IMG/VR virus record: IMGVR_UViG_3300022538_001454
Location: 1 to 41,987 of that record
Source of the DNA: a virus
DNA length: 41,987 bases
Direction: 5' to 3' (one strand)
The stretch's first letter is position 1; every line of letters starts with the position of its first letter. The position numbers were made by a program, and so were the translations under genes. Of the stretch, positions 1,149 through 14,267 are shown in pieces. The notes beneath the pieces were generated by a model. It was not told where the DNA came from. It did no database searches and saw only the letters and a list, made by a program, of their open reading frames with translations.

Positions 1149-2849
1149 ATGGCAAGCAAGAGAACAAAACTCGAACTAACGTGGATTGGGAAGGAAAACC
1201 GGCCCAAGCTGGAGCCGCGGATTCTGATTGAGGATCCGGAGAAGTCTTACCACGCGGCGCAACGTCAAAGCGAAAACGATATTTTCGACAATCGGCTGAT
1301 CTTCGGTGATAACCTGCTGGCCCTCAAGGCGCTGGAACAGGAGTTCACCGGAAAGGTCAAGTGCATTTACATTGACCCTCCATATAACACAGGTTCTGCA
1401 TTCGAGCATTATGACGATGGTGTTGAACACTCACTATGGTTGTCGCTGGTGCGTGATCGGCTCGAGATTCTCAGGAAGCTTCTCACCAAAGATGGGTCAC
1501 TTTGGGTCAGCATTGATGATGTCGAATATGCATACCTGAGGGTATTGCTCGACGAAGTGTTTGGGCGGGCGAATTTTGCCACCACGATAATTTGGGAAAA
1601 ACGCAAGACTCGTGAAAACAGGAGAGTATTCTCGTTCAAGCACGACTACGTAGTGGTATATGCAAAGAACCGCAGGATTTTCGAAGGCACAAGGAATGCT
1701 CTTCCAATGAGCGAGAGCGTGCGTGCCCGTTACAGAAACCCGGACAACGATCCGCGAGGGTCTTGGCAATCTATCTCAGCACTAGCTCAAGCTGGCCACG
1801 GGACCGCGTCGCAATTTTACACCCTCACTGCGCCAAATGGCAAGGAACATGAACTACCCGAAGGGAACTGTTGGCGCTACACACAGCAAAGGATGACTGA
1901 AGCAATAAACGACGGTCGTATATGGTTCGGGAAGACAGGCAACAATGCGCCCAGAATCAAGAAATACCTGAGCGAAAGCGGCGATTCTGGGCTAACCCCG
2001 GAAACGATATGGTATGCAGACGAGGTTGGCACCACCGATACGGCAAAGAAGCATTCCCTTCAACTCTTCGAAGGCGGAACCGTTTTTGACACACCCAAAT
2101 CCGAAGAACTCCTGCAGCGAATACTCCAGATAGCCACCAACTCAAACGACATTGTTCTGGACTCATTCGCCGGCTCCGGCACCACGGGAGCAGTGACTCA
2201 CAAGATGGGCCGCCGCTGGATCATGGTGGAGCTTGAAGAAACATGCCACACGCACATCATTCCTCGCATAAAAAAGGTCATTGACGGCAAAGACGAGGGC
2301 GGCATCACCAAGGCCGTGAACTGGAAAGGCGGTGGCGGTTTCCGTTACTACCGGCTCGGCCCGTCGCTTATCATTGAAGACGAATGGGGCAACCCGGTCA
2401 TCAACTCCGAGTTCAACGCGGCGATGTTGGCCGAAGCCATGTGCAAGCTCGAGGGCTTCGAATACGCTCCCAGCGAGGAGGTCTACTGGATTCACGGCAA
2501 AAGCACGGAATGTGATTTCCTTTATGTGACCACCCAGTTTATGAGCAAGCAGATGCTGACACGCCTCAGCGACGAGGTCGGGCCGGAACGCAGTCTGCTG
2601 ATCTGCTGCTCCGCCTTCCGGTGCGATCCGAGCCAGTTCCCAAACCTGACCGTTAAGAAGATACCAAAGGCCGTGCTCAAGAAGTGCGAATGGGGTCACG
2701 ACGACTACAGCCTGGAGATCAAAAACCTCCCGAAGGCTCCGCCGGAGCCGGACCAACTGACGGAAGACAAATCTGCCAAACCACGGAGGAAGTTCGGCAA
2801 GGACAAACAGGTGCAGGCGACACTGTTCGACATGGGAGGTGAAAAATGA
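1149..2849 (+). CDS. mod: Type III restriction-modification system, DNA methyltransferase subunit (Mod)
   Basis: Methylates adenine N6 in the recognition site and supplies sequence specificity for the whole type III complex. The catalytic DPPY motif (residues 76-79) comes before the SAM-binding FAGSGTTG (340-347), the order of beta-class amino-methyltransferases such as EcoP15I Mod. The segment between them is the usual place for the target-recognition domain. At 566 aa it is in the normal Mod range. Start chosen at the ATG with GGAG 8 nt upstream (1137-1140). The stop codon overlaps the start of res by ATGA, so the two subunits should be made in fixed ratio. I saw no simple tandem repeat of the kind that gives phase-variable mod genes. 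Confidence 0.95.
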   Translation: MASKRTKLELTWIGKENRPKLEPRILIEDPEKSYHAAQRQSENDIFDNRLIFGDNLLALKALEQEFTGKVKCIYIDPPYNTGSAFEHYDDGVEHSLWLSLVRDRLEILRKLLTKDGSLWVSIDDVEYAYLRVLLDEVFGRANFATTIIWEKRKTRENRRVFSFKHDYVVVYAKNRRIFEGTRNALPMSESVRARYRNPDNDPRGSWQSISALAQAGHGTASQFYTLTAPNGKEHELPEGNCWRYTQQRMTEAINDGRIWFGKTGNNAPRIKKYLSESGDSGLTPETIWYADEVGTTDTAKKHSLQLFEGGTVFDTPKSEELLQRILQIATNSNDIVLDSFAGSGTTGAVTHKMGRRWIMVELEETCHTHIIPRIKKVIDGKDEGGITKAVNWKGGGGFRYYRLGPSLIIEDEWGNPVINSEFNAAMLAEAMCKLEGFEYAPSEEVYWIHGKSTECDFLYVTTQFMSKQMLTRLSDEVGPERSLLICCSAFRCDPSQFPNLTVKKIPKAVLKKCEWGHDDYSLEIKNLPKAPPEPDQLTEDKSAKPRRKFGKDKQVQATLFDMGGEK

Positions 2850-5560
2850 GTATTCAACATATCAATTCTATCAGCAACCGTTTGAGCCTGCGTCCCCCGC
2901 AACGGGATTCGCTGGAGATTCTGGCCCGCATTTGCGAAATCATCACACTTGAAAAGAACAGCGATACTGCGCAAGCCGTAGAAATAATCAAAAGTGAGTT
3001 CTCAACCGTTGAGGATTTCGAGCGTGATTTCCCGTCGCTTTGTTTTGCCCTGGCCACTGGTGTAGGTAAGACCAGGCTGATGGGCGCTTTTATCAGCTAC
3101 TTATACATGAGTCAGGGGATCCGTCATTTCTTTGTGCTCGCGCCGAACTTGACAATATATAACAAGCTGATTGCTGACTTTAAGCCGAACACGCCGAAGT
3201 ATGTCTTCCAGGGGATTTCTGAATTTGCAGTAAATCCTCCGGAGATCATTACCGGTGATGACTATGAGAGCGGCCGCGGTATGCGCGGCGGCAGGCTATT
3301 CGACATGGGTGAAGTGCATGTCAATATTTTCAATATCTCGAAAATAAACAGCGAAGTGCGTGGCGGAAAGTCGCCCCGCATCAAGCGTCTGAGTGAATAC
3401 ATCGGGCAAAGTTATTTCGACTACCTTGCCGGGTTGGACGACTTGGTGATGTTAATGGACGAATCGCACCGCTACCGGGCCAGCGCCGGAGTACGGGCGA
3501 TCAATGAATTGAAACCCATCCTCGGACTGGAGCTGACCGCTACGCCACAGGTGGAACGAGGCCAACGCGCCGAGCCTTTCAAGAATGTGATTTACAGCTA
3601 TCCTCTAAGCAGTGCAATGGATGACGGATTCGTGAAAGAACCTGCAGTTGCGACGCGGGAGAACTTCGATGCGGCAAACTACACACCGGACGGCCTGGAG
3701 AAGGTCAAGCTCGAAGATGGTATCCGAATTCACGAAAATACGAAAGTCGAACTAGAGGTATACGCCCGAAATAACGAAAAACAGATCGTCAAACCATTCA
3801 TGCTGGTGGTCGCCCAGGACACAACACATGCCAATGCCCTGCAGCAAGTAATAGAAAGCGAGGATTTCTTCGAAGGAAGATACAAGGATAAAGTAATCAC
3901 TATCCACTCAAATGTGCGCGGCGAGATAAAAGACGAAGTTGTGGAGCAATTATTGACCGTTGAGCACCCGGATAACCCCATTGAGATAGTCATTCACGTC
4001 AACATGCTCAAAGAGGGGTGGGACGTCACAAATCTCTACACCATTGTTCCATTGCGAGCTGCGAACTCCCGGACTCTGGTTGAGCAGTCCATCGGACGTG
4101 GACTGCGCCTGCCTTATGGCAAACGTGTGGGAATCCCGACAGTAGATCGTCTAACCATCGTGTCACATGACAGGTTCCAGGAGATAATCGACCACGCCAA
4201 CGATCCGAACTCGATTATCCGAACTGGAATAGTCATCGGAAAAGATATCCCCGAGGCCGGCAAGAAGGCGGTGATTGTCGAATCCGAGTTTGAGAAAACC
4301 ATTTCTGTACCTCCTGCGAAGGCAAGCGAAAAGGGGGAGGCAGCAGAAAGCCGCAGCCTATTCGAGAAGCCGGAGGAGCAAGAAGTGGCGAAGGCGACGT
4401 TTCAGGTTATTCGACAGTATGAACGCTTACGTGGGAGCGATCAACTTCAGCGTGAGGATATACAGGAAGAAATCGTCAAAAGTGTTGAAGAAATAGTTCG
4501 CCCAAAACAAGGATTACTCTTCGATGCTCTCGGCGAAAAGACTGTTGCAAAGATTGTGAAGGAAACCACAACATTATATCAGAACTTGTCTATTGACATT
4601 CCAAAAATCGTGGTATTACCGAAAGGGGAAGTGGCTGCAGGATACGAGGATTTCGATCTGAATACAACTAATATCAACTTACAACCAGTTTCCCAGGATA
4701 TACTTATTCAACATCTGCACGACATGCAAAGATATAAACTACGAGATGGGTCGGGGATTATTGAGGAGAAACGACCAGAAGACTACATGGTGCGCGGCTT
4801 GATCGATTTCAATGACATCAGTTATGATGACCATGCGGCATTGCTTTATAAACTGGCAGGGCAGGTCGTGACGCATCTACGATCTTATCTAACTGAAGAA
4901 GAAGACGTGTTGAATTCGCTGCAGTACCATCAGCAAATTCTTGTAAACCTGATTCATGCACAGATGCAAGACCACTTCGTAGAATCTGCCACATCTTATG
5001 AAGCCCATGTCACCAAAGGTTTTCGCACCTTGCGCCCAAATAGCTACACTGCCGGTGCAGATGAGGTGATTCGTAACTTCAGGACGCCAATCCCCGAAGG
5101 TAAAAAGAATAGAATTAGGAACATGCTATTCGGTGAATTCGAGCGGTGCTTGTATTCAGTCCAGAAGTTCGACACTGACTCGGAGAGACGCTTTGCAGTA
5201 ATCCTTGAGAGCGATGAGGATGTTCTGAAGTGGTACAAGCCGGCAAAAGGTGATTTTCAGATTCACTATAGTCACGATAAATCATATGAACCGGACTTCG
5301 TAGTTGAGACAAAAACCGACAAATACATCTGTGAGCCAAAGCGAGCCAGCGAGATAGAGGATGAGACTGTCTTGGCAAAAGCAGACGCGGCGACCGTGTG
5401 GTGTGAACATGCTACGATCCATGCGAAGACCTATGGCGGTAAGTCATGGACTTATCTCCTTATTCCGCACGACCAGATCTCGGAACAAATGAGCTTGTCG
5501 GGTTTGGCATCCAAGTGTACGCATAAGGAGAGAAATAGAAATGCCCGACCGGGACGTTAG
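2846..5560 (+). CDS. res: Type III restriction-modification system, restriction/helicase subunit (Res)
   Basis: ATP-dependent translocase and nuclease that, with Mod, cuts unmodified DNA carrying head-to-head sites. It starts with an SF2 helicase core: Walker A ATGVGKT (70-76), Walker B DESH (205-208), motif III LTATP (230-234) and motif VI SIGRGLRLP (about 415-425). The C-terminus has a PD-(D/E)xK nuclease signature: PD at 816-817 and ExK at 830-832. At 904 aa it is close to the family norm and looks intact. GGGAGGTG just before the ATG (2834-2841) is a strong ribosome binding site. The start overlaps mod by 4 bp, and the 3' end overlaps the next gene by 20 bp. Confidence 0.94.
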   Translation: MSIQHINSISNRLSLRPPQRDSLEILARICEIITLEKNSDTAQAVEIIKSEFSTVEDFERDFPSLCFALATGVGKTRLMGAFISYLYMSQGIRHFFVLAPNLTIYNKLIADFKPNTPKYVFQGISEFAVNPPEIITGDDYESGRGMRGGRLFDMGEVHVNIFNISKINSEVRGGKSPRIKRLSEYIGQSYFDYLAGLDDLVMLMDESHRYRASAGVRAINELKPILGLELTATPQVERGQRAEPFKNVIYSYPLSSAMDDGFVKEPAVATRENFDAANYTPDGLEKVKLEDGIRIHENTKVELEVYARNNEKQIVKPFMLVVAQDTTHANALQQVIESEDFFEGRYKDKVITIHSNVRGEIKDEVVEQLLTVEHPDNPIEIVIHVNMLKEGWDVTNLYTIVPLRAANSRTLVEQSIGRGLRLPYGKRVGIPTVDRLTIVSHDRFQEIIDHANDPNSIIRTGIVIGKDIPEAGKKAVIVESEFEKTISVPPAKASEKGEAAESRSLFEKPEEQEVAKATFQVIRQYERLRGSDQLQREDIQEEIVKSVEEIVRPKQGLLFDALGEKTVAKIVKETTTLYQNLSIDIPKIVVLPKGEVAAGYEDFDLNTTNINLQPVSQDILIQHLHDMQRYKLRDGSGIIEEKRPEDYMVRGLIDFNDISYDDHAALLYKLAGQVVTHLRSYLTEEEDVLNSLQYHQQILVNLIHAQMQDHFVESATSYEAHVTKGFRTLRPNSYTAGADEVIRNFRTPIPEGKKNRIRNMLFGEFERCLYSVQKFDTDSERRFAVILESDEDVLKWYKPAKGDFQIHYSHDKSYEPDFVVETKTDKYICEPKRASEIEDETVLAKADAATVWCEHATIHAKTYGGKSWTYLLIPHDQISEQMSLSGLASKCTHKERNRNARPGR

Positions 5561-7871
5561 GACACTGCGGGATTTAATCTGGTATCAATACGCGAAAATC
5601 ATCGCGAAGCGCGCTCTTGGCCCTGACGCGAAGCGGGAACATTACGGGTTCGTCAAGCAGACACTTCGTGACCTGCAGAGCGGCAGGAAACAATGGTCGG
5701 ACATCAGCCGGGAGGACTGGCAGTTCGTGGAATCCGAAAAACAGTGTATCTATTGTAGTTCCGTGGAAAATCTTAGCCGCGAGCATCTTGTCGCTAAATC
5801 GCTCAGAATCAACGACCGATGCGCGACGTGCGATGTGATACAATCCATTCACAACCAAGTCTGGTCGTGCAAATCATGCAACTCGCAGAAAGGAACTATG
5901 GGGTTGTATGCTTTTTATGCCAAGCGGCTTCATTCCGACAAAAAGTTTTACGACCGCATCCCGCCACTTGCGGAGAAAAAGTATCTAAAAACAATATACG
6001 TGTGCCTGGACAAATGCACAACCTACTTCAGCGAGACGCCCGGAGGCGGGAAGCAGCCGGATGTTTTGGCGCTCGATAAAACCTTACAGGTTATTGGGCA
6101 GTTATTAGAATACGACGGTCCAAATGCTCATCTCATCAGAAAATGGCAAGAGTCAAATACAGACGCTTCTATTCTGGAATATCTTAAATATCTGGACAGT
6201 GGTTATGAATTGACCGAGAAGCATCTTAATCAGGCATTCAATCTTTTTCTCCAAACAGCGGAAGACCCGCGTTGGGATACAGCGGGATATGGAGAAATTG
6301 AGCCAGGTCAACGCATATGCTTATCTGAAGCTTTTGAAGATAATCCTATCGATGATACACTGATATATTTTGAGAATGCAGATCTTTTTGAAGTATGGAA
6401 TCGCGAGGCCATCATGCAATATTGGATTGATGATGCTCCATTTTATACATTAGAAGAATTATCTCTTGTAACTCGAAAAGCAATTGAGCACTTAGAACGT
6501 AACCGCGAATACCTGTTGCAGTATGGTCACTCCCTATCTGTGTTTACTCGGTGTGATTTTTTAATGAGATTAACCGACCGTTTATATTATACAGATTGCC
6601 CTTCCTCTCTACACCGTGTACGGGCAAGTCAGCTTGATAAGAAAACATTAAATAAATTATTCCCACATGGGAATCTCCCGGAACCTTTTAATTTTGTTGC
6701 TAATGCTGATATGGCAATAAAAAATCCTTTTCATAAAATGGAACCAATTGATGAGATATCCCCTCAAGATAAAAAGATGCTTATAGATGGCCGTAATAGG
6801 TTTTTTTCTCTTAAACAGCAAATTCTGCAGGAGTTATTCCGCTCTATATGTTCTCGAAGCGCAGACGGCCTATGGGATAGGTGTGTTAATTTGATCCGCG
6901 AAGCAATTTCAGCCGAGGAGGCGGAATTTTATCTTCGAGTTGATAGAATATATGAAGGATACGATATCCAGACAGATGAAAACAATCCTGACTGTGGGTT
7001 AATCGCAGGAGGACTGACAAGACTTCTAGATACTATCTGGCATTACGAAAAAGAAATTACGATTGGAACAATTCATCATTGTAAATCAAAGCTGAATGAG
7101 GTTGGGCTTGGGGGTATAAGCGAAATAGGCCGTGGTGAATTGTATGTATCAACTGGAGAGCCCACCAAAAGTTACTATGCTTTTATTAATGATGAAAAAC
7201 GTAACATATTGGACGCCGCTCTTGATCAATTTATGATTCTTTATGAGAGAGAAACTAATCATTGGCAGGAGTATCGAAAGCGGGTCAATTATGTACTTGA
7301 GAATGAGCTTTATGTTGATATTACCATACATAAGAAAATCAAACGTCCACTGGCATATAAATATAAGCCGGTAGTAACGAGATTTGCAGAATATGCAAAA
7401 TGTTTCCTCGAAGCTAACCCCAACGCATCCTTACAGAATACATTAGGAGTATCAGCCATTACTTGTGTTCAACATAATGCAGGGGGTATAGATACTTCAA
7501 AATCGCCGGAACATATTGATGTGCAAGCAGATCAGGAAAGAAACGCGAAAAAACTGAATTACCAGGCTGCTATTGAAGGTAACGTTCTAAAAATCGAAGG
7601 CCACACCATTCCCGGGTTAACTCGAGATGAAGTACGAAAAATTTGGAAGCTACATTCCATAAAACCTGGAGCAGATGGGAAGAGACGACTAGACCATCAA
7701 AGCTCCGACTACAACCGCATGATAAATGCATTAGTTGGTAGAGGAAAAACAAGACCTGGGGCTATTGCCAAGATAAATCAAACTCAATACAACGGATTTA
7801 TTGCAAAAATAGAAGGAGAAGTCGCCTTCCGAATTTATGGAACTATCGAGCGCCACGACCAGCAAAGATAA
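5541..7871 (+). CDS. Large HNH-endonuclease-domain protein linked to the type III RM operon
   Basis: A 776-aa protein with an N-terminal HNH nuclease module at residues 69-117: CxxC (69-72), the EH pair (81-82), a second CxxC (94-97), then N105, CxxC (110-113) and N114/K117. This zinc-bound beta-beta-alpha-metal arrangement cuts DNA or RNA in known HNH proteins. The remaining 650 residues match no family I recognise; the C-terminal about 80 residues are basic and rich in predicted helix. AAGGAG (5525-5530) precedes the ATG, and the gene starts inside the end of res, so it is co-translated with the RM system. DNA of about 6100-7450 is clearly more AT-rich than both ends, suggesting the central part has another origin. 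Accessory nuclease or regulator of the RM locus is inference. Confidence 0.75.
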   Translation: MPDRDVRTLRDLIWYQYAKIIAKRALGPDAKREHYGFVKQTLRDLQSGRKQWSDISREDWQFVESEKQCIYCSSVENLSREHLVAKSLRINDRCATCDVIQSIHNQVWSCKSCNSQKGTMGLYAFYAKRLHSDKKFYDRIPPLAEKKYLKTIYVCLDKCTTYFSETPGGGKQPDVLALDKTLQVIGQLLEYDGPNAHLIRKWQESNTDASILEYLKYLDSGYELTEKHLNQAFNLFLQTAEDPRWDTAGYGEIEPGQRICLSEAFEDNPIDDTLIYFENADLFEVWNREAIMQYWIDDAPFYTLEELSLVTRKAIEHLERNREYLLQYGHSLSVFTRCDFLMRLTDRLYYTDCPSSLHRVRASQLDKKTLNKLFPHGNLPEPFNFVANADMAIKNPFHKMEPIDEISPQDKKMLIDGRNRFFSLKQQILQELFRSICSRSADGLWDRCVNLIREAISAEEAEFYLRVDRIYEGYDIQTDENNPDCGLIAGGLTRLLDTIWHYEKEITIGTIHHCKSKLNEVGLGGISEIGRGELYVSTGEPTKSYYAFINDEKRNILDAALDQFMILYERETNHWQEYRKRVNYVLENELYVDITIHKKIKRPLAYKYKPVVTRFAEYAKCFLEANPNASLQNTLGVSAITCVQHNAGGIDTSKSPEHIDVQADQERNAKKLNYQAAIEGNVLKIEGHTIPGLTRDEVRKIWKLHSIKPGADGKRRLDHQSSDYNRMINALVGRGKTRPGAIAKINQTQYNGFIAKIEGEVAFRIYGTIERHDQQR

Positions 7872-7886
7872 CCCTTTCAAGAATAC

Positions 7887-7927
7887 TTTAACCACAGTTT
7901 AACCAACCACTTAACCAATAGTTACCC
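7887..7927. repeat. Helically phased TTAACCA direct repeats (putative operator or arm-type sites)
   Basis: Three copies of TTAACCA start at 7888, 7899 and 7911, followed by a weaker TTACCC at 7922. Spacings are 11, 12 and 11 bp, about one DNA turn. A flanking ACCCTTTC occurs on both sides (from 7871 and from 7924). The array fills most of the 64-bp gap between the defence operon and the first phage-like gene. Phased direct repeats of this size are typical of protein-binding sites. Which protein binds is unknown. Confidence 0.5.
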
Positions 7928-7935
7928 TTTCTTTC

Positions 7936-8367
7936 ATGCCTTATATTTCCATTGCCGAGCAGGAAATTATGTCTGTTTCCATGGGCTTGGCGGAAACATT
8001 ACTCCATTACGCCCAAAGGTGCAAAAGAAGGTTCGGCATGACCGAAACAGTAAAATTCGATTCTCTTTCTCCCACAAGAAAAAGCTTAGTGAGACTTATG
8101 CAGGAAACCGGATTCGGTCGCCTCGAAGGGCTTGTCATCCGCGCGGGTGAACCGGCGCTTGACCCGCCGCCGCGCATTATACGTACGTTGAAATTGGGCG
8201 GCGACAACAGACCAAGGCCCGAGGTCGCCAAGAGGAACTTCATCCTGAAGGCACAGGTCGTCGAACTTTTCCAATGCATGGATAAAATGCAAAACGGCGT
8301 TATCGCCGTCATCGAAGTGAAACATGGTCTCCCATTCAAAATGGAAATCGAGGAAAACGCAGCCTAA
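7936..8367 (+). CDS. Conserved hypothetical protein of mobile elements, function unknown
   Basis: A 143-aa soluble protein with no signal peptide or membrane segment. The central and C-terminal 100 residues (from about residue 45: LSPTR, then GFGRLEGLVIRAGEP, DPPPRI, RPE, and LKAQVVELF with an EVKHGLPF end) resemble a small family I recall from phage and genome-island contexts in diverse bacteria. No activity is known to me. The start is uncertain: ATG 7936 has no clear ribosome binding site, whereas the in-frame ATG at 7969 follows AGGAAATT and would give 132 aa. It is the first gene after the TTAACCA repeats and lies upstream of the sigma-like gene. Confidence 0.6.
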   Translation: MPYISIAEQEIMSVSMGLAETLLHYAQRCKRRFGMTETVKFDSLSPTRKSLVRLMQETGFGRLEGLVIRAGEPALDPPPRIIRTLKLGGDNRPRPEVAKRNFILKAQVVELFQCMDKMQNGVIAVIEVKHGLPFKMEIEENAA

Positions 8368-8433
8368 TTCAAGGGTGGGTTCCCTTATGAAATTGTAGTT
8401 TTCGGAACCTGACAACAATCTGGCCACAAAGTG

Positions 8434-8479
8434 GAAGGCGTTGTGGGTGCCGCGGAAAGCGGTAATTCACAACGCCTTC
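8434..8479. repeat. 12-bp perfect inverted repeat upstream of the sigma-like gene
   Basis: GAAGGCGTTGTG (8434-8445) is followed after 22 nt by its exact complement CACAACGCCTTC (8468-8479). It lies in the 172-bp gap between the hypothetical gene ending at 8367 and the GTG start at 8540. No strong T-run follows, so a classical terminator is less likely than an operator or an RNA hairpin, but termination cannot be excluded. Apart from this repeat I see nothing in the gap. Confidence 0.6.
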
Positions 8480-8539
8480 TTTGTTGAGGGCTCCACTTCC
8501 CTGCGGCATCCACGCACACCTCCGGCCAAGGAGGCAAAC

Positions 8540-9127
8540 GTGAATGCCAACGGAAAACAGCATGAACTCAGTAAATGTATCGCCAATTTTATTCGTTTCA
8601 AAGCCCGCCAGATCGTGGGCAAGGCTGGTTTTACAGAAAGCGATATTAATGACATCGCGCAATCGATGACGACCGACCTTCTTTCGCGCCTGCCAAAGTT
8701 CGATCCGAACAGGGCCGCGCAAACAACTTTTGTCGCTCGCGTCATCGAACACAAAATCAGCAAGCTCATTCGTCACCGCAAACAGAAAAAACGTGACCAC
8801 AGGCGCGAATCCTGCTCTCTCAACGATTCTATTGAAGGTCTGTATGGAGAAACCATCGAGCGTGTTGCAACCCTTGATCAGGACGAAGTGGCCATTCGCA
8901 TAGGTAGGCGCCGTTGTACACGCGAAGAAGAGGCGCGACTTCACTTCGATGTCTCAATCGTAATCTCCCGCCTCCCCAATGACCTGCGCCCAATTGCCGA
9001 GCACTTGAAAACAGAAACCATAACCGAAACCGCCAAGAACCTCGGGATACCGCGCACGACACTATACGGAGCCATTCATCGTCTACGCGTTATCTTCGAG
9101 GACGCCGGCCTGAAAAAATATTTATAG
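8540..9127 (+). CDS. Sigma-70-family (ECF-like) RNA polymerase sigma factor homologue
   Basis: A 195-aa regulator expected to bind host RNA polymerase or act as a DNA-binding activator. The N-terminal half resembles sigma region 2: acidic helix, then a FDPNRAAQTTFVARVIEHK stretch and a basic patch. The C-terminal 55 residues form a region-4 helix-turn-helix: LPNDLRPIAEHL, then TETAKNLGIPRTTLYGAIHRLR. The reading frame is open from 8441, but the GTG at 8540 is chosen because AAGGAGG (8528-8534) sits 5 nt before it. That start removes a segment which includes half of the 12-bp inverted repeat. As the only sigma-like gene seen, it is a candidate switch for the middle or late phage genes. That role is inference. 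Confidence 0.78.
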   Translation: MNANGKQHELSKCIANFIRFKARQIVGKAGFTESDINDIAQSMTTDLLSRLPKFDPNRAAQTTFVARVIEHKISKLIRHRKQKKRDHRRESCSLNDSIEGLYGETIERVATLDQDEVAIRIGRRRCTREEEARLHFDVSIVISRLPNDLRPIAEHLKTETITETAKNLGIPRTTLYGAIHRLRVIFEDAGLKKYL

Positions 9128-9201
9128 GTTCCCCGTCATGTCGTCAATGCACGGTGTATGTATCCAATGGCGACATTTGCAGCCAAGAAAGGACAAGCGA
9201 A

Positions 9202-9519
9202 ATGAGCGCTAAATTATACCGTTACCAGTTTGAACCGGAAATACAGGCACAGGAAGTCGAGGAGACCTTGCACCTGGCCGTCCTTGCCGCCGAGTGCCTG
9301 CACGGCCAGTCGCGCGTGCGGCTCGACGCTTCTTATTTCATGGATACTGAAAAACGCATTTGCGTTATCAATGCCGGTACGGATGTAGGCCGCGACATCG
9401 TGCGTATTTTTACCGGCTTCGCAATCCGCGAATTCGGAGAAACCGCTTTCACGGTGCGCCGTGTCGATAGAGCGCCCAGGCCAGAGACGAAGGAAGGACG
9501 AGCCCATGAAGGTCATTGA
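9202..9519 (+). CDS. Conserved small phage/island protein, function unknown
   Basis: A 105-aa soluble protein. It contains EVEETLHLAVLAAECLHG, RLDASYFMD, a NAGTDVGRDIVRIFTGF segment and an FGETAFTVRRVDRAP end. I recall similar small proteins beside the same kind of 140-aa hypothetical gene in other mobile regions, without a known function. The start is the ATG at 9202, after AGAAAGGACAAG; the frame is open further upstream to 9154 but without a ribosome binding site. The last codons overlap the next small ORF by 14 bp, suggesting a translationally coupled early operon ending in the primase. Confidence 0.62.
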   Translation: MSAKLYRYQFEPEIQAQEVEETLHLAVLAAECLHGQSRVRLDASYFMDTEKRICVINAGTDVGRDIVRIFTGFAIREFGETAFTVRRVDRAPRPETKEGRAHEGH

Positions 9520-9586
9520 TATGAGCTTTATTAAAAGCCGTTTTCTACAACGTTCACACCAAGCATGGCGAGAGCCGCCATTTTAA
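9506..9586 (+). CDS. 26-aa leader ORF translationally coupled to the primase
   Basis: A short ORF (MKVIDMSFIK at the start, WREPPF at the end) preceded by AGGAAGGA (9491-9498), one of the better ribosome binding sites in this part. Its stop codon overlaps the primase ATG as TAATG at 9584-9588, while the primase has no site of its own. This arrangement suggests the peptide exists mainly to deliver ribosomes to the primase start. No homology recognised; the peptide itself may be non-functional. Confidence 0.5.
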   Translation: MKVIDMSFIKSRFLQRSHQAWREPPF

Positions 9587-11724
9587 TGATCGACTTGAAA
9601 AACCAGCTCCTCAACGCTGCGATCCATTACGCCGAGCTTGAATACCCGGTTTTTCCATGCGCGCCTGGTGGCAAAGTGCCTATAACCAAGCACGGTTTCA
9701 AGGACGCGACAACGGACATCGAGCAGATCGAAACGTGGTGGCGACAACGTCCGGACGCCAATATCGGGATCACTACAACCGGCCTCGTTGTGATCGATGT
9801 CGATGGCGCTGACAATCCCTGGCTCGCCGGCGATCCAGACATGTGCGCCGACCTGGCGCAGGGCGCGTTATCGTTCACACCCGGCGGCGGCCGGCATCAT
9901 ATTTTCCGGCAGCCTGAAAGCAAGAACTGGGGTAATACCTCGGGCAAGCTCGCTCCGAAGATCGACACGCGCGGCAATGGTGGATATATCATTGTTCCAC
10001 CATCGGTCATCGATGACAAGGCCTACACCTGGGCGGAAACTTACGAACTGGACGAGTCGCCGGAGCAACTTCCCGAACCACCGGCCTGGCTTGCCGAACT
10101 TCTCGACAACGGGCCGCACTTATGCAGCCAACGGCCGCGTGACGCGCCCACAGTCGCGCCGTGTTCGCCACAGGGCGAAGATTCGGCCGCTACTGGCAAC
10201 ATTATACCATCCGGGCAGAGGAACGCGACACTGGCACGCCTGGCCGGCGCAATGCGCCGCGTGGGGATGGGGTATGCCGAAATACGCGCCGCCCTCGCGC
10301 AGACGAACGCGGACCGCTGCAAGCCGCCGATGTCCATGCGTGAGGTGGATAAGATTTCGGCAAGCATCTGCCGGTATGAGCCGGATCAAGTTTCTGTCGC
10401 TGTTGCTGAGAACCACTGGGCGCAGGATTTTCAGGGCGGTGAGAAAGAAGAGGAACTCACCCCATCGCTCCCCGATCCAGGGCCGCTACCGGAAGAGCTA
10501 CTCCGCGTGCCTGGCTTTGTATCAGAGGTCATGGATTACTGCCTCGAGACCGCGCCGTACCCGAATACTGTCATGGCGTTCTGCGGCGCGCTCGCGCTCC
10601 AAGCCTTCCTGGCCGGGCGCAAGGTGCGCGATCCCGGAGACAATCGCACTAACGTCTACCTGCTCGGACTCGGGCATTCAGGCACCGGGAAAGACTGGCC
10701 GCGAAAGATAAACACGAAAATTATTCACGGAATCGGTCTCTCCGACTCGCTCGGTGAACGGTTCGCATCCGGTGAAGGCATTCAGGACGCCTTGTTCGGA
10801 AAGCCATGCATGCTGTTCCAGACCGATGAGATCGACGGAATGTTGCAGACAATCAACAAGGCCAAGGACGCCAGGCACGAGAATATTATGTCCACGCTGC
10901 TCACAATGTTCTCGGCGTCCAATAGCGTGTTCCCCATGCGCAGGAAAGCGGGGAAAGAATCGCCCGGGGCTATCGACCAGCCATGCCTCATCATCTTCGG
11001 AACCGCGATCCCGAACCACTATTACGAAGCGCTCTCGGAACGCATGCTCACAAACGGGTTTTTCGCCCGGATGATTATCCTCGAGAGCAACAAGCGGCCG
11101 GAAGGTCAGGACCCCAAGCTTATCGAGCTCCCGGACAGGGTTCTCGAAACCGCTAAGTGGTGGTCCGAGTTCAACCCCGGGACCGGCAATCTGGAAAAAT
11201 GGCATCCGGTACCCAAGGTCGTCGAGCATACCGATGAGGCCGTGGAAATCCTGACCGAGTGCCGTCGGGAAGCGGAAACCGAGTACTCGGCTGCTGAGGC
11301 ACGTAACGATTCCGTAGGCACGACCGTATGGAGTCGGGTCAATGAGCAGGCACGGAAGCTGGCCCTGCTCTACGCCGTAAGCGAAAACCACATCGAGCCC
11401 GTCATCGGGAAAGGTGCTACGGAATGGGGCAGCCTGTTTGCCGTCCACCAGACTAAGCGGATGCTGTTTATGGCCGGCGAGCATGTTTTTGAGAGTGAAT
11501 TCGATTCCAGGTGCAAGAAACTCTTGGCAATCCTGAAAAAATGGCGTGCAAAAAAGGGCAACCAATGGATGGAGTTCTGGAGAATCCGACGGAAACTAAA
11601 ATGGAATGATAGAGACCACGAGGAAGTTCGAAACGCTCTCATAGGCCAACGGATTATCGAATATGATGAACCTCCGACTGGAGGAAAACCCAAAAAATTG
11701 TACCGCTTAGTTGAAAGTTATTGA
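9586..11724 (+). CDS. Bifunctional primase-polymerase / helicase-like replication protein
   Basis: A phage/plasmid replication protein of 712 aa. The N-terminal prim-pol domain (about 10-190) has the catalytic DVD (71-73) and GGGRHHIF (100-107), giving primer and possibly DNA synthesis. A PriCT-like helical domain follows (about 210-265). The C-terminal half is a DUF3987-like P-loop ATPase: Walker A GHSGTGKD (363-370) and Walker B FQTDEIDG (411-418). Such proteins prime and unwind at the element's origin. ATG 9586 is chosen because it overlaps the leader stop; the alternative ATG 9565 would add 7 residues but has no ribosome binding site. Directly downstream lies the iteron-like AT-rich segment, which fits a self-contained replication module. 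Confidence 0.9.
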   Translation: MIDLKNQLLNAAIHYAELEYPVFPCAPGGKVPITKHGFKDATTDIEQIETWWRQRPDANIGITTTGLVVIDVDGADNPWLAGDPDMCADLAQGALSFTPGGGRHHIFRQPESKNWGNTSGKLAPKIDTRGNGGYIIVPPSVIDDKAYTWAETYELDESPEQLPEPPAWLAELLDNGPHLCSQRPRDAPTVAPCSPQGEDSAATGNIIPSGQRNATLARLAGAMRRVGMGYAEIRAALAQTNADRCKPPMSMREVDKISASICRYEPDQVSVAVAENHWAQDFQGGEKEEELTPSLPDPGPLPEELLRVPGFVSEVMDYCLETAPYPNTVMAFCGALALQAFLAGRKVRDPGDNRTNVYLLGLGHSGTGKDWPRKINTKIIHGIGLSDSLGERFASGEGIQDALFGKPCMLFQTDEIDGMLQTINKAKDARHENIMSTLLTMFSASNSVFPMRRKAGKESPGAIDQPCLIIFGTAIPNHYYEALSERMLTNGFFARMIILESNKRPEGQDPKLIELPDRVLETAKWWSEFNPGTGNLEKWHPVPKVVEHTDEAVEILTECRREAETEYSAAEARNDSVGTTVWSRVNEQARKLALLYAVSENHIEPVIGKGATEWGSLFAVHQTKRMLFMAGEHVFESEFDSRCKKLLAILKKWRAKKGNQWMEFWRIRRKLKWNDRDHEEVRNALIGQRIIEYDEPPTGGKPKKLYRLVESY

Positions 11725-11745
11725 TGTGCCTACTGCTCGAATTGA

Positions 11746-11956
11746 ACTTATTGACGAGCAAATAATTGGAAGGGGAAAAACCAAATGGACAATAAGACAA
11801 TAAGTCGTCAATTGGTTGAAAGACATAACTGTATATATGATAAAGAAATATATATTTTTATTATACTTATTGTCTTATTGTCTATACCCCCCTGTCTCTA
11901 TATTTTTCCCTGTTTTTCTGTGTATACGCGACCCCCTTGACAATTAGTCAATAAGT
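11746..11956. repeat. Iteron-like GACAATAAG repeats in AT-rich DNA; candidate replication origin
   Basis: The 299-bp gap after the primase holds an 18-bp perfect inverted repeat: GACAATAAGACAATAAGT (11788-11805) and its complement (11865-11882). Each arm is itself a tandem duplication of GACAATAA. A third copy in the first orientation lies at 11939-11956 with 16 of 18 matches, and a half copy (ACTTATTGAC) at 11746-11755. The 59 bp between the arms are very AT-rich. Iterons plus an AT-rich stretch beside a replication gene is the usual layout of phage and plasmid origins. A transcription terminator or operator is the main alternative, because the arms could form a hairpin. Confidence 0.55.
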
Positions 11957-12023
11957 TTTGCTCCGGATGGTTTTCAGGATTATTGCTCAGCCTAACCCAA
12001 TAACTTATGAAAGGACGGATTGT

Positions 12024-12263
12024 ATGGAACGCTGCTGTTACGACTGTGATTACTTTTACTCGTCGGTGGAACTGACCGGAAAAGAGCAATGTATCGATCA
12101 TGTTGAAGGCGAATGCCGACGCCAGCCTCCGGTTGTGGGCGATTATTTCAAAGGCTCTGGAGATGAAGATACAGATGAGCACGGCTTCGGTGAGTTCCCG
12201 AAAGTGCTCGGAGCCGACTGGTGCGGAGAGTTCGTGAAACGGGAGGGTTCAGGTGGACAGTAA
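12024..12263 (+). CDS. Small cysteine-rich (putative zinc-binding) phage protein
   Basis: A 79-aa protein that begins with ERCCYDCDYF, has further Cys in an EQC and a GECRRQPP segment, and ends with FPKVLGADWCGEF. The pattern of CxxC, then EC near RxxPP, then FPxV and DWCGEF is one I recognise from small proteins in phage early regions, probably binding one zinc ion. The function is not known. The ATG at 12024 is chosen because AAAGGACG (12010-12017) precedes it; the frame is open back to 11958 without a site. It overlaps the SpoVG-like gene by 11 bp. Confidence 0.65.
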   Translation: MERCCYDCDYFYSSVELTGKEQCIDHVEGECRRQPPVVGDYFKGSGDEDTDEHGFGEFPKVLGADWCGEFVKREGSGGQ

Positions 12264-12549
12264 ACTCCGCGACATTTTCACGATAACCGAGGTCAGGATA
12301 AGACTCGCGGATGAGCCGCGAGGCGGTCTCATCGGTTGGGCATCATGCGTGCTGAACGGGATGTTCCTCCTGGATAGCATAGCCGTGTTCCGAGGTGAAA
12401 GCGGGGAGTTCTTGCTCTCGTTTCCGAAAAAATCATCCCAGCATGGGACCGAGTACCATTTTTTCAAGCCGATTACACGTTCCGCCTACCAGCAACTTCT
12501 CGAGGCGATAGTAAAAAGGTTGGACCTAACCAGAAAGGACTTGCGATGA
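12253..12549 (+). CDS. SpoVG-like DNA/RNA-binding protein
   Basis: A 98-aa protein resembling SpoVG, a small site-specific nucleic-acid-binding regulator first known from Bacillus sporulation. Matching features are the ITEVRIRLA opening strand, a central strand-turn with LNGMFLLDSIAVF, the GEFLLSFPKK motif (SpoVG has a very similar F(V/L)xMPSK element), and the C-terminal helix ITRSAYQQLLEAI. Length equals the family norm. It starts with GTG, with GGGAGG 6 nt upstream (12241-12246), inside the end of the Cys-rich gene; its stop overlaps the next start as ATGA. SpoVG homologues are sometimes carried by phages; a role in controlling phage genes is inference. Confidence 0.75.
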   Translation: MDSKLRDIFTITEVRIRLADEPRGGLIGWASCVLNGMFLLDSIAVFRGESGEFLLSFPKKSSQHGTEYHFFKPITRSAYQQLLEAIVKRLDLTRKDLR

Positions 12550-12695
12550 AACCCGAAGAAGAAATCGACCGGATTTTGAAAGAAGATATACCTCTCACGC
12601 GTGAGATCAATGCCGTCCACAGGAGGATACGTGCGGAAACGGCAGTCAAACGCAATGAACTGCGGGAGATGTACGACAGGTTCGATATTGTGTAG
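12546..12695 (+). CDS. 49-aa charged helical protein, unrecognised
   Basis: A very short ORF starting at an ATG that overlaps the SpoVG-like stop (ATGA, 12546-12549). The product is strongly charged (KPEEEIDRILKED near the N-terminus, RRIRAE and KRNELREMYDRF later) and probably one or two helices. No homologue recognised. Tight coupling and the absence of rare-looking codons support real translation, and it closes the early operon. DNA-binding accessory or anti-host protein are both possible; nothing decides between them. Confidence 0.55.
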   Translation: MKPEEEIDRILKEDIPLTREINAVHRRIRAETAVKRNELREMYDRFDIV

Positions 12696-13138
12696 CCGGA
12701 AGGTTGTGCGGGTTCCGTTCTTGCTTTGAATGCCGCTTTCGGAGTTTTGACAGAGGCGGAATATTATCTTTCAGCAGCGGAGAGCTTTTAGCGGGAGGGC
12801 CTCCTGATCGTATATTCCTGGAACATGGGCGACCGTGGTGTCACACCCCACGGGGTGAAGTATCCACATAACGCCCAATATAATAAAGAGTTACGCGAGC
12901 GATGCCGGGCGGCTCGGTGACGGCGCAGCCTTTGCTCTACCCCTTACCCTTGTTTCCGTTAGGCAGATATGGCCCGCAACCCCCCGGCTACACTCAAATT
13001 ATGACGAGCTCAGTTTCGATTTGCCTTTTCCGGCGCTCTCGGCGAACTACGGAGAATTGACTTGACTTCTGGTGGCGGAAAAGCCCTCATGTATAATGAT
13101 TTGCTCTGGAATAGGTTACGCAGATTGGAGGTGCATCC
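12696..13138. other. 443-bp stretch without a convincing gene
   Basis: No ORF of normal quality. Visible items: overlapping small palindromes at 12833-12857 (CCGTGG/CCACGG at 12833-12838 and 12848-12853, and CACCCC-AC-GGGGTG at 12844-12857); a 31-codon ORF at 12825-12920 with no ribosome binding site; and TATAAT hexamers at 12879-12884 and 13092-13097 without a well-spaced -35 box (two TTGACT lie 24-29 bp before the second one). The stretch separates the early operon from the recombinase module and probably carries regulation, but no element is certain. Confidence 0.5.
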
Positions 13139-13310
13139 ATGAGCGGATTTTCAGGCAGATTGTACATTCCCGAAAACGAGTTTGACATCGAGGAAGGCAA
13201 TGAGCGAAACAGATAAAACCCGTGTCGCTGGTTATGGCTTCGCCGGTCCTCATCACGCCGTCGTGCTTGCGAAATGCCTTCCTGGCTTTTTCGTAGCTCT
13301 TGTTCTTCAT
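13116..13310 (-). pseudogene. N-terminal remnant of an AbiEi-type (type IV) antitoxin
   Basis: Reading the minus strand from the ATG at 13310 gives MKNKSYEKARKAFRKHDGV and then MRTGEAI before the frame drifts into unrelated sequence near 13230. The pattern of KAxxxFxKHxGVxRTxEAI is the start of the N-terminal winged-helix of AbiEi-family antitoxins, which normally continues with an IHPRTLYALRD-like segment that is absent here. The start has a GGAGGCG ribosome binding site on the minus strand. Full AbiEi proteins have roughly 200-300 residues, so only about one tenth survives. No AbiEii nucleotidyltransferase toxin is present. Most likely a scar left when the recombinase module or phage arm was exchanged. 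Confidence 0.45.
13139..13216 (+). CDS. 25-aa micro-ORF with strong ribosome binding site
   Basis: A possible micropeptide beginning MSGFSGRLY and ending EERG-like acidic/basic residues (EEGNERNR). GGAGGTG (13127-13133) lies 5 nt before the ATG, and a TATAAT lies 42 bp upstream, so translation is plausible. It could also be the severed N-terminus of a former gene, because sequence right after its stop reads better on the other strand as an antitoxin remnant. No homology recognised. Confidence 0.3.
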   Translation: MSGFSGRLYIPENEFDIEEGNERNR

Positions 13311-13358
13311 GGATAATAACGCCTCCACTTATTGACATTTGGAGGCATTTTTATCCAT
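13309..13358. repeat. 19-bp near-perfect inverted repeat between AbiEi remnant and recombinase
   Basis: Arms at 13309-13327 (ATGGATAATAACGCCTCCA) and 13340-13358, matching at 17 of 19 positions as inverted copies, with a 12-bp spacer. The left arm contains the antitoxin remnant's start codon and ribosome binding site on the minus strand; the right arm lies upstream of the recombinase. AbiEi antitoxins are known to repress their own operon by binding inverted repeats in the promoter, so this looks like the old autoregulatory operator. A recombinase site is an alternative. Confidence 0.6.
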
Positions 13359-13361
13359 ATC
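13332..13361 (+). promoter_or_regulatory. Possible promoter for the recombinase operon
   Basis: A perfect -35 box TTGACA at 13332-13337 sits in the spacer and right arm of the inverted repeat. The best -10 candidate, CATATC at 13356-13361 (18-bp spacing), is poor, so the assignment is weak. If real, binding to the inverted repeat would shut it off. The leader to the recombinase ATG is about 105 nt. Confidence 0.3.
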
Positions 13362-13469
13362 GGAGGAATTATCAAGTACTTTTTCGGGAATACTGGGAAC
13401 ACCCTTGCTATTTCGCCGGGAATACCCCCTCATGTGTGTAACCTTTTGAATGAAAGGAGGTTGCGCAAT

Positions 13470-14267
13470 ATGGTGATTAGCGAAGAAAACCCGATAACAG
13501 CGGCCGGATACATCCGCGTGTCGCAGGAGCGGCAGGTAAAGAACGGCTATGGCTTGGAGGCGCAAGAGCACGACATCAAGCGATTCGCGGAGTACAAGGG
13601 CTGGCAGCCCATTGAACTTTACCGCGAGGAAGGCGTGTCGGGTTACAAGCGAGACAGACCTGCACTGGAGCGCCTGCTTGCGGACGCCAAAGCGGGAAAG
13701 TTTGACGTGGTCGTATTTCCGTCGATAGACCGCACAGGCCGTTCCGTGAAAGACATAATCGAGATTGACACCGCGCTACGCGACGCCGGCGCGAGCATTG
13801 TGTTCCTTCGGGAAGGTATTGACACGTCAACGCCGACAGGTCAACTCTTTCGGAACATCATGGCCTCGGTCGCCGAGTTCGAAGGGCGCATGATCTACGA
13901 GCGACTTTCCAAGGGCAGGTGCCGCAAGGCTGCCGCGGGCGGTTACGTCGGCGGCTGGCTTCCACTCGGTTATCGTCGCGGCGAAGATGGCAAGGTTGCC
14001 GTCGTGCCCGAAGAAGCCAAAATTGTCAAGCGCATCTTCCGCTGGTCAGCCGAGGGGCGCAGGCTTTGCTGGATCGTGGGGCGTCTGAATGAAATGGCTG
14101 TGCCTACCCGCAACGGCGGCACCTGGCGTGTTTCCACGGTCCAAGGAGTTTTACGGAACAGGTTCTATACGGGTTACATCGTGATTGAGGGAGAACTTGT
14201 CCGCAGCCAGAACGCCGCTATTATTCCTGGTTCACTTTTTGAATCCGCAATACGCAAGGAGGGTTGA
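13470..14267 (+). CDS. Compact serine recombinase (resolvase/integrase family)
   Basis: A site-specific recombinase of 265 aa, expected to join or excise the element via a serine-DNA intermediate. The N-terminal catalytic domain shows YIRVSQERQ (catalytic Ser in the YxRVS motif, near residue 18), EEGVSGYKRDRP, the SIDRTGRSVKD arginine motif, and the helix-E start GQLFRNIMASVAEFEGRMI. A recombinase domain follows (RLCWIVGRLNEMAVPTR, then GVLRNRFYTGY). Large serine integrases run to 450-600 aa with a zinc ribbon and coiled coil; both are missing, and the protein stops just after the recombinase domain. ATG 13470 is chosen for AAAGGAGG (13453-13460). Its stop overlaps the next start (TGATG). Confidence 0.88.
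   Translation: MVISEENPITAAGYIRVSQERQVKNGYGLEAQEHDIKRFAEYKGWQPIELYREEGVSGYKRDRPALERLLADAKAGKFDVVVFPSIDRTGRSVKDIIEIDTALRDAGASIVFLREGIDTSTPTGQLFRNIMASVAEFEGRMIYERLSKGRCRKAAAGGYVGGWLPLGYRRGEDGKVAVVPEEAKIVKRIFRWSAEGRRLCWIVGRLNEMAVPTRNGGTWRVSTVQGVLRNRFYTGYIVIEGELVRSQNAAIIPGSLFESAIRKEG

Follow-up and report, generated by a model that had tools for sequence, protein, structure and literature searches.

A candidate replication origin of alternating iteron blocks behind a Prim-Pol/DUF3987 helicase gene in a virus of uncultured Planctomycetota

The DNA analysed here (the window) is the complete 41,987-nt stretch of IMG/VR record IMGVR_UViG_3300022538_001454, a virus record with contractile-tail phage genes, encoding portal, prohead protease, capsid, tail sheath and baseplate proteins. 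Positions 4565-14052 also occur, with 7 mismatches, in a contig (L132) of the MAG Planctomycetota bacterium E44_bin39, and the virus is one of uncultured Planctomycetota bacteria. Six of the seven differences fall within 97 bp (9059-9155), a cluster that runs from the end of a sigma-like gene into the beginning of the following one. Near the left end, a DNA methyltransferase beside a ResIII-type helicase (1149-5560) resembles a type III restriction-modification pair. The locus of interest comprises a primase-helicase gene and the non-coding repeats that adjoin its 3' end (Table 1). Just behind them lies a gene for a SpoVG-family protein (12253-12549; PF04026, 5e-9), followed by a stretch without a clear gene (12550-13331) and a serine recombinase gene (13332-14267) whose 311-aa product looks truncated, its Recombinase domain running to the end; the MAG contig stops inside this gene, at window base 14052.

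Table 1. Positions of the putative initiator gene and of the elements of the candidate origin
Feature	Position	Strand	Remarks
Putative initiator gene	9565-11724	+	Prim-Pol, PriCT-1, DUF3987 AAA+ helicase and C-terminal winged helix; 719 aa
Winged helix (residues 641-719), putative repeat-binding domain	11485-11721	+	
Whole candidate origin	11725-12023		299 bp; intergenic, from initiator stop to ATG at 12024
Outer half copy GTCAATAAGT	11746-11755	-	Fits class word NCAANARG
Iteron block 1 GACAATAAGACAATAAGT	11788-11805	+	Two tandem 8-bp units GACAATAA
AT-rich core, putative DNA unwinding element	11806-11864		51 of the 60 bases from 11827 are A or T
Iteron block 2	11865-11882	-	Perfect inverted copy of block 1
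Alternating pyrimidine-purine tract TGTGTATACGCG	11919-11930		
Iteron block 3 GACAATTAGTCAATAAGT	11939-11956	+	16/18 identity with block 1; tract offsets as in relatives

An earlier note, based on the letters of the window, had proposed a candidate origin here on the strength of a perfect 18-nt inverted repeat with tandemly duplicated arms, a third copy and a half copy, all in AT-rich DNA just behind the prim-pol/helicase gene, and each of these elements was found where it had been placed. With one mismatch allowed the arms grow to 21 nt (11785-11805 and 11865-11885) with 59 nt between them. The note's view that such a set is unlikely to arise by chance also held: among 2000 dinucleotide-preserving shuffles of positions 11700-12010, a perfect inverted repeat of at least 18 nt was reached in 5 and an 8-mer occurring at least four times over both strands in 6. 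No further copy of GACAATAAG exists elsewhere in the window; the GTCAATAAG form recurs once in isolation, with a single mismatch and on the minus strand, right where the recombinase gene begins (13328-13336). The GC content is 27% at 11801-11900 vs 54% for the whole window. As in iteron origins, several short iterons are thus clustered in non-coding DNA, with an AT-rich region, the putative unwinding site, between iteron blocks. Use of the TTG start of the next gene would move the end of the candidate origin to 11957.

The protein encoded directly upstream has Pfam matches to PF09250 (5.5e-40), PF08708 (5.6e-11) and PF13148 (9.1e-8), its PHROG matches are primases, and NCBIfam gave no match. 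Modelled by itself from a single sequence, the winged helix gave a weak result (pLDDT 66), and an alignment-based AlphaFold model was therefore used. This covers the helicase and C-terminal region (pLDDT 79), and the end of the chain forms a winged helix of the order helix-helix-helix-strand-wing-strand, with pLDDT mostly 85-91. In Foldseek comparisons the model resembles MCM proteins, the C-terminal region of NrS-1 and SCCmec Cch at modest TM-scores of about 0.2-0.4, and a profile search of PDB sequences returned only winged-helix regulators at E about 0.4. The helicase, DUF3987 in Pfam and matched in Foldseek by MCM-like AAA+ proteins, NrS-1 and Cch, is not clearly of the SF3 type. By its predicted fold the putative initiator belongs with the replication AAA+ helicases that carry a winged helix and, again as in iteron origins, the repeats adjoin the 3' end of a gene whose predicted structure and fold matches indicate an AAA+ helicase joined to a C-terminal DNA-binding domain. 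The N-terminal primase part (window 9565-10400) is replaced in the homologues at loci L141, L143 and L123, where it is 15-21% identical to that of the window, whereas the helicases of the same three proteins are 64-91% identical to the window's despite this apparently unrelated N-terminal part. The protein is a mosaic at both ends.

A search for the repeats next to homologous primases, which the earlier note had put forward as a check, was strongly positive, with the qualification that relatives keep the anatomy and differ in the word. Relatives of the protein were taken from viral contigs and bacterial genomes. In a first non-redundant set, an 8-mer repeated at least three times in both orientations within 400 nt behind the stop was found at 42 of 54 loci, and at most of these, shuffled sequence and other windows from that locus rarely did as well; the other 12 lacked such an exact 8-mer, several of them having degenerate copies by eye. 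Nothing convincing was seen behind the gene at L118, L144 and L179. The exact 17-mer was scanned for in viral contigs (88 stretches), and the word itself is not what the relatives conserve. Most carry GGTGAAAGAAG-like words; GTGACGGATT occurs at L125, L148, L150, L153 and L156, and single loci have GGACAAAAGG (L123), GGCCATAAG (L128), TTGACGGATT (L141), GGCAATAGGT (L225), GGCCAAAAGG (L198), GCAAGAAG (L226), GGAATCGAGT (L131) and GCGCAATATT (L143). Repeats of this kind are not a rule that holds for every Prim-Pol/DUF3987 phage, since 5 of the 9 distant annotated loci inspected are without them.

What most of the 96 non-redundant loci encoding relatives of the enzyme share, in the same place and with different words, is a set of blocks that alternate in orientation, an AT-rich core whose minimum GC over 30 bp has a median of 23%, and an alternating purine-pyrimidine tract. 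Alternating runs of at least 12 bases are present in 78 of the 96 origin regions vs 59 of 1768 control windows; the tract of the window is only just at this 12-base threshold. The tract is centred a median of 78 bp 3' of the AT-rich minimum and lies on its 3' side in 47 of the 52 loci with both features clear. Relative to the tract, blocks are usually placed near -120 (plus), -45 (minus) and +22 (plus), and the window's offsets are -132/-124, -55/-47 and +18/+26. The minus block is nearest the tract at 45 of 53 scored loci, and the full plus/minus/plus order is followed exactly at 30 of them; at a further 12 loci the chosen word had no copy 3' of the tract. A G/C-rich hairpin of many relatives is absent from the origin region of the window. 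Our guess is that the tract serves as a second melting or structural element.

This conserved layout bears on two explanations that dispense with an origin. The repeats could be an operator through which transcription downstream is controlled, by the primase-helicase or by some other regulator of the phage; a gene does follow on the same strand, regulators also use winged helices, and there is a weak promoter-like match at 11837-11864. Promoter-like matches are at chance level, however (2 found vs 1.4 expected), the presumed binding domain forms one protein with a helicase and a primase, and the AT core and block geometry are kept though downstream genes differ among loci, and we regard an operator as very improbable. 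A recombination or packaging site, whether pac/cos or an attP for the serine recombinase close by, is more doubtful still. The recombinase gene begins only about 1.4 kb downstream, but the repeats accompany the primase-helicase gene across relatives, and to our knowledge serine-integrase att sites do not take the form of multi-block iteron arrays with an AT core. No terminase is recognised nearby, nor was a terminase large subunit recognised among the window proteins scanned, which represent part of the ORFs.

Further evidence comes from the words themselves, which co-vary with the winged helix of the neighbouring protein. Across 95 loci, word similarity correlates with winged-helix identity (residues 650-716) at r 0.663 and with helicase identity at r 0.369. 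The partial correlation with the winged helix, helicase controlled, is 0.595 (0 of 2000 permutations as high), that with the helicase, winged helix controlled, 0.070 (360 of 2000 as high). When winged helices are divided into classes, GTGAARS occurs at least three times at 54 of 70 loci with the LLKRMK type, TGACGGAT does so at 5 of 5 with the ADFDQI type and NCAANARG at 10 of 16 with the window type, and no locus in any of these three classes has three copies of another class's word. The classes were set by protein motifs alone, but these were picked after the sequences had been seen, and the permutation test is therefore the cleaner of the two. Three natural swap pairs (the window copy and L141, L149 and L150, L176 and L200) combine helicases 93-95% identical with winged helices 24-38% identical and word similarities of 0.01-0.04. 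There are 38 pairs with helicases more than 80% and winged helices less than 45% identical, and in the 15 of these whose helicases are most alike the words have a similarity of at most 0.22, mostly below 0.05; pairs with winged helices at least 60% identical (n=155) average 0.49. The comparison shows winged helix and word travelling and matching as a pair. This supports binding and does not prove it, since winged helix and origin are neighbours that a single recombination event can move.

The pair closest to hand is the window and L141, which was binned in the same MAG as the near-identical copy of the window phage. Their DNA is homologous (87%) up to 11508, the homology is broken through the winged helix and the origin, and it resumes at 12277 in the SpoVG-like gene. 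The AT/tract part is inverted in L141, window 11821-11942 matching L141 6475-6360 on the opposite strand. Further downstream, positions 12765-13206 are 86% identical to L141, in which a 2.4-kb segment lies between the SpoVG-like gene and this match.

A core that can be inverted fits a function at the DNA level better than one at the RNA level, and this matters for the reading of the repeats as a terminator of transcription, or as some other hairpin acting in the RNA, downstream of the primase gene. The perfect 18-bp inverted repeat and the folding energy of the single strand (z = -5.95) would suit such a hairpin. An intrinsic terminator would present a GC-rich stem with a short loop followed by a T run; here the loop is 59 nt long, a T tract is lacking and no terminator-like site was found in the repeats, and Rfam gave no match. 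The words also change along with the winged helix of the protein, and in pRN1 replication needed only the large stem-loop and not the terminator (PMC4234260). A role as terminator only, which the earlier note had named as an outcome that would tell against an origin, is thus disfavoured, and we consider any such RNA-level role very unlikely. The GC-skew check that it had also proposed gave no clear sign change at the repeats.

The layout matches three known systems, namely the annotated Sfi21 origin, the annotated P4 crr/ori and the mapped pRN1 origin, which supports the origin reading of the earlier note. In Streptococcus phage Sfi21 the origin, a phage-encoded resistance element, occupies a 302-bp non-coding region directly 3' of the primase gene, with tandem 8-bp units forming inverted pairs around an AT-rich core that contains a TATATAGAGAGAG stretch; it has been described as an independent origin switched on by infection (PMC6356513). 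Its word is AGTAACTA, primase and helicase are in separate genes, and no purine-pyrimidine tract like that of the window was noticed. In P4, crr lies directly 3' of the alpha gene, its 8-bp type 1 repeats being arranged as tandem and inverted pairs, and alpha is likewise a helicase-primase fusion with a C-terminal winged helix, which is stated to bind the P4 repeats (PMC4234260). Unlike the window, P4 has a bacterial-type (Toprim) primase and the word GGTGAACA, and its annotated origin is found on the other side of alpha, over 4 kb away from crr.

The origin of the Sulfolobus plasmid pRN1 has been mapped experimentally 3' of its primase-helicase gene, and the authors suggested that bacteriophages share this type of origin (PMC4234260). 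As in the window, the gene encodes a Prim-Pol/helicase/winged-helix protein, arms of 21 bp surround an AT-rich loop (58 bp, vs 59 in the window), and origins of this type keep structure while sequence varies, as the window's relatives do; pRN1 itself has an SF3 helicase, and no third block was noticed in it. The authors describe one stem-loop, not iterons. The pRN1 arms (L251, 285-305 and 364-384) contain two imperfect tandem GGACA units, so the pRN1 origin might also be read as an inverted pair of iterons and not simply as a stem-loop. In SaPI Rep and SCCmec Cch2 the C-terminal domain recognises iterons just downstream of the protein's own gene (PMC7581432), an arrangement of initiator helicase and repeats like that of the window, with Cch among the fold matches, although primase or polymerase are in separate genes and the iterons are others. 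Kazlauskas et al. (PMC5862659) put forward origin recognition as a possible role for the C-terminal winged helices found in related primases. We found no description of origins of the DUF3987 phage family in the open-access literature, which is weak evidence of absence.

Because the anatomy is conserved beside homologous genes and the word tracks the winged helix, we consider the repeat cluster to be a replication origin of the phage or prophage, with a probability of roughly 0.87. Replication origins of this kind are known, and the present one would be a variant in which the blocks alternate, a purine-pyrimidine tract is present and the word is matched to the winged helix. As for mechanism, we infer binding, melting, priming and a bidirectional start. 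The C-terminal winged helix of the adjoining upstream protein would bind the 8-bp iterons, arranged as tandem pairs of alternating orientation, and facing complexes on blocks 1 and 2 would assemble AAA+ helicase rings that melt the AT-rich core between them; the Prim-Pol domain would then prime the exposed single strands for extension by a host or phage polymerase. Iteron binding is the simplest mechanism given that the C-terminal domains of SaPI Rep, Cch2 and P4 alpha recognise or bind repeats, and the SpoVG-like protein is not needed to explain the cluster.

The interesting parts are the word swapping and the purine-pyrimidine tract. A candidate origin could be placed from sequence alone in phages of uncultured bacteria, and each origin word linked to a domain of roughly 80 residues. 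On balance we lean towards the hypothesis that origins of the DUF3987 phage family are exchangeable cassettes of winged helix plus origin, which recombine in the space bounded by a conserved helicase core on one side and conserved downstream genes on the other. Some ten initiator-origin specificities would then exist in nature as a library built on an almost constant helicase. The hypothesis includes the alternating purine-pyrimidine tract as a conserved element, not remarked on before, whose distance from the AT core is fixed. Near-identical helicases that differ in winged helix and word open the DNA-recognition code of this initiator class to direct testing by domain swaps. Where the word changes together with the binding domain, cross-initiation between related elements that share a cell may also be avoided, as might apply in the MAG above, whose two elements have helicase cores about 91% identical and different words.
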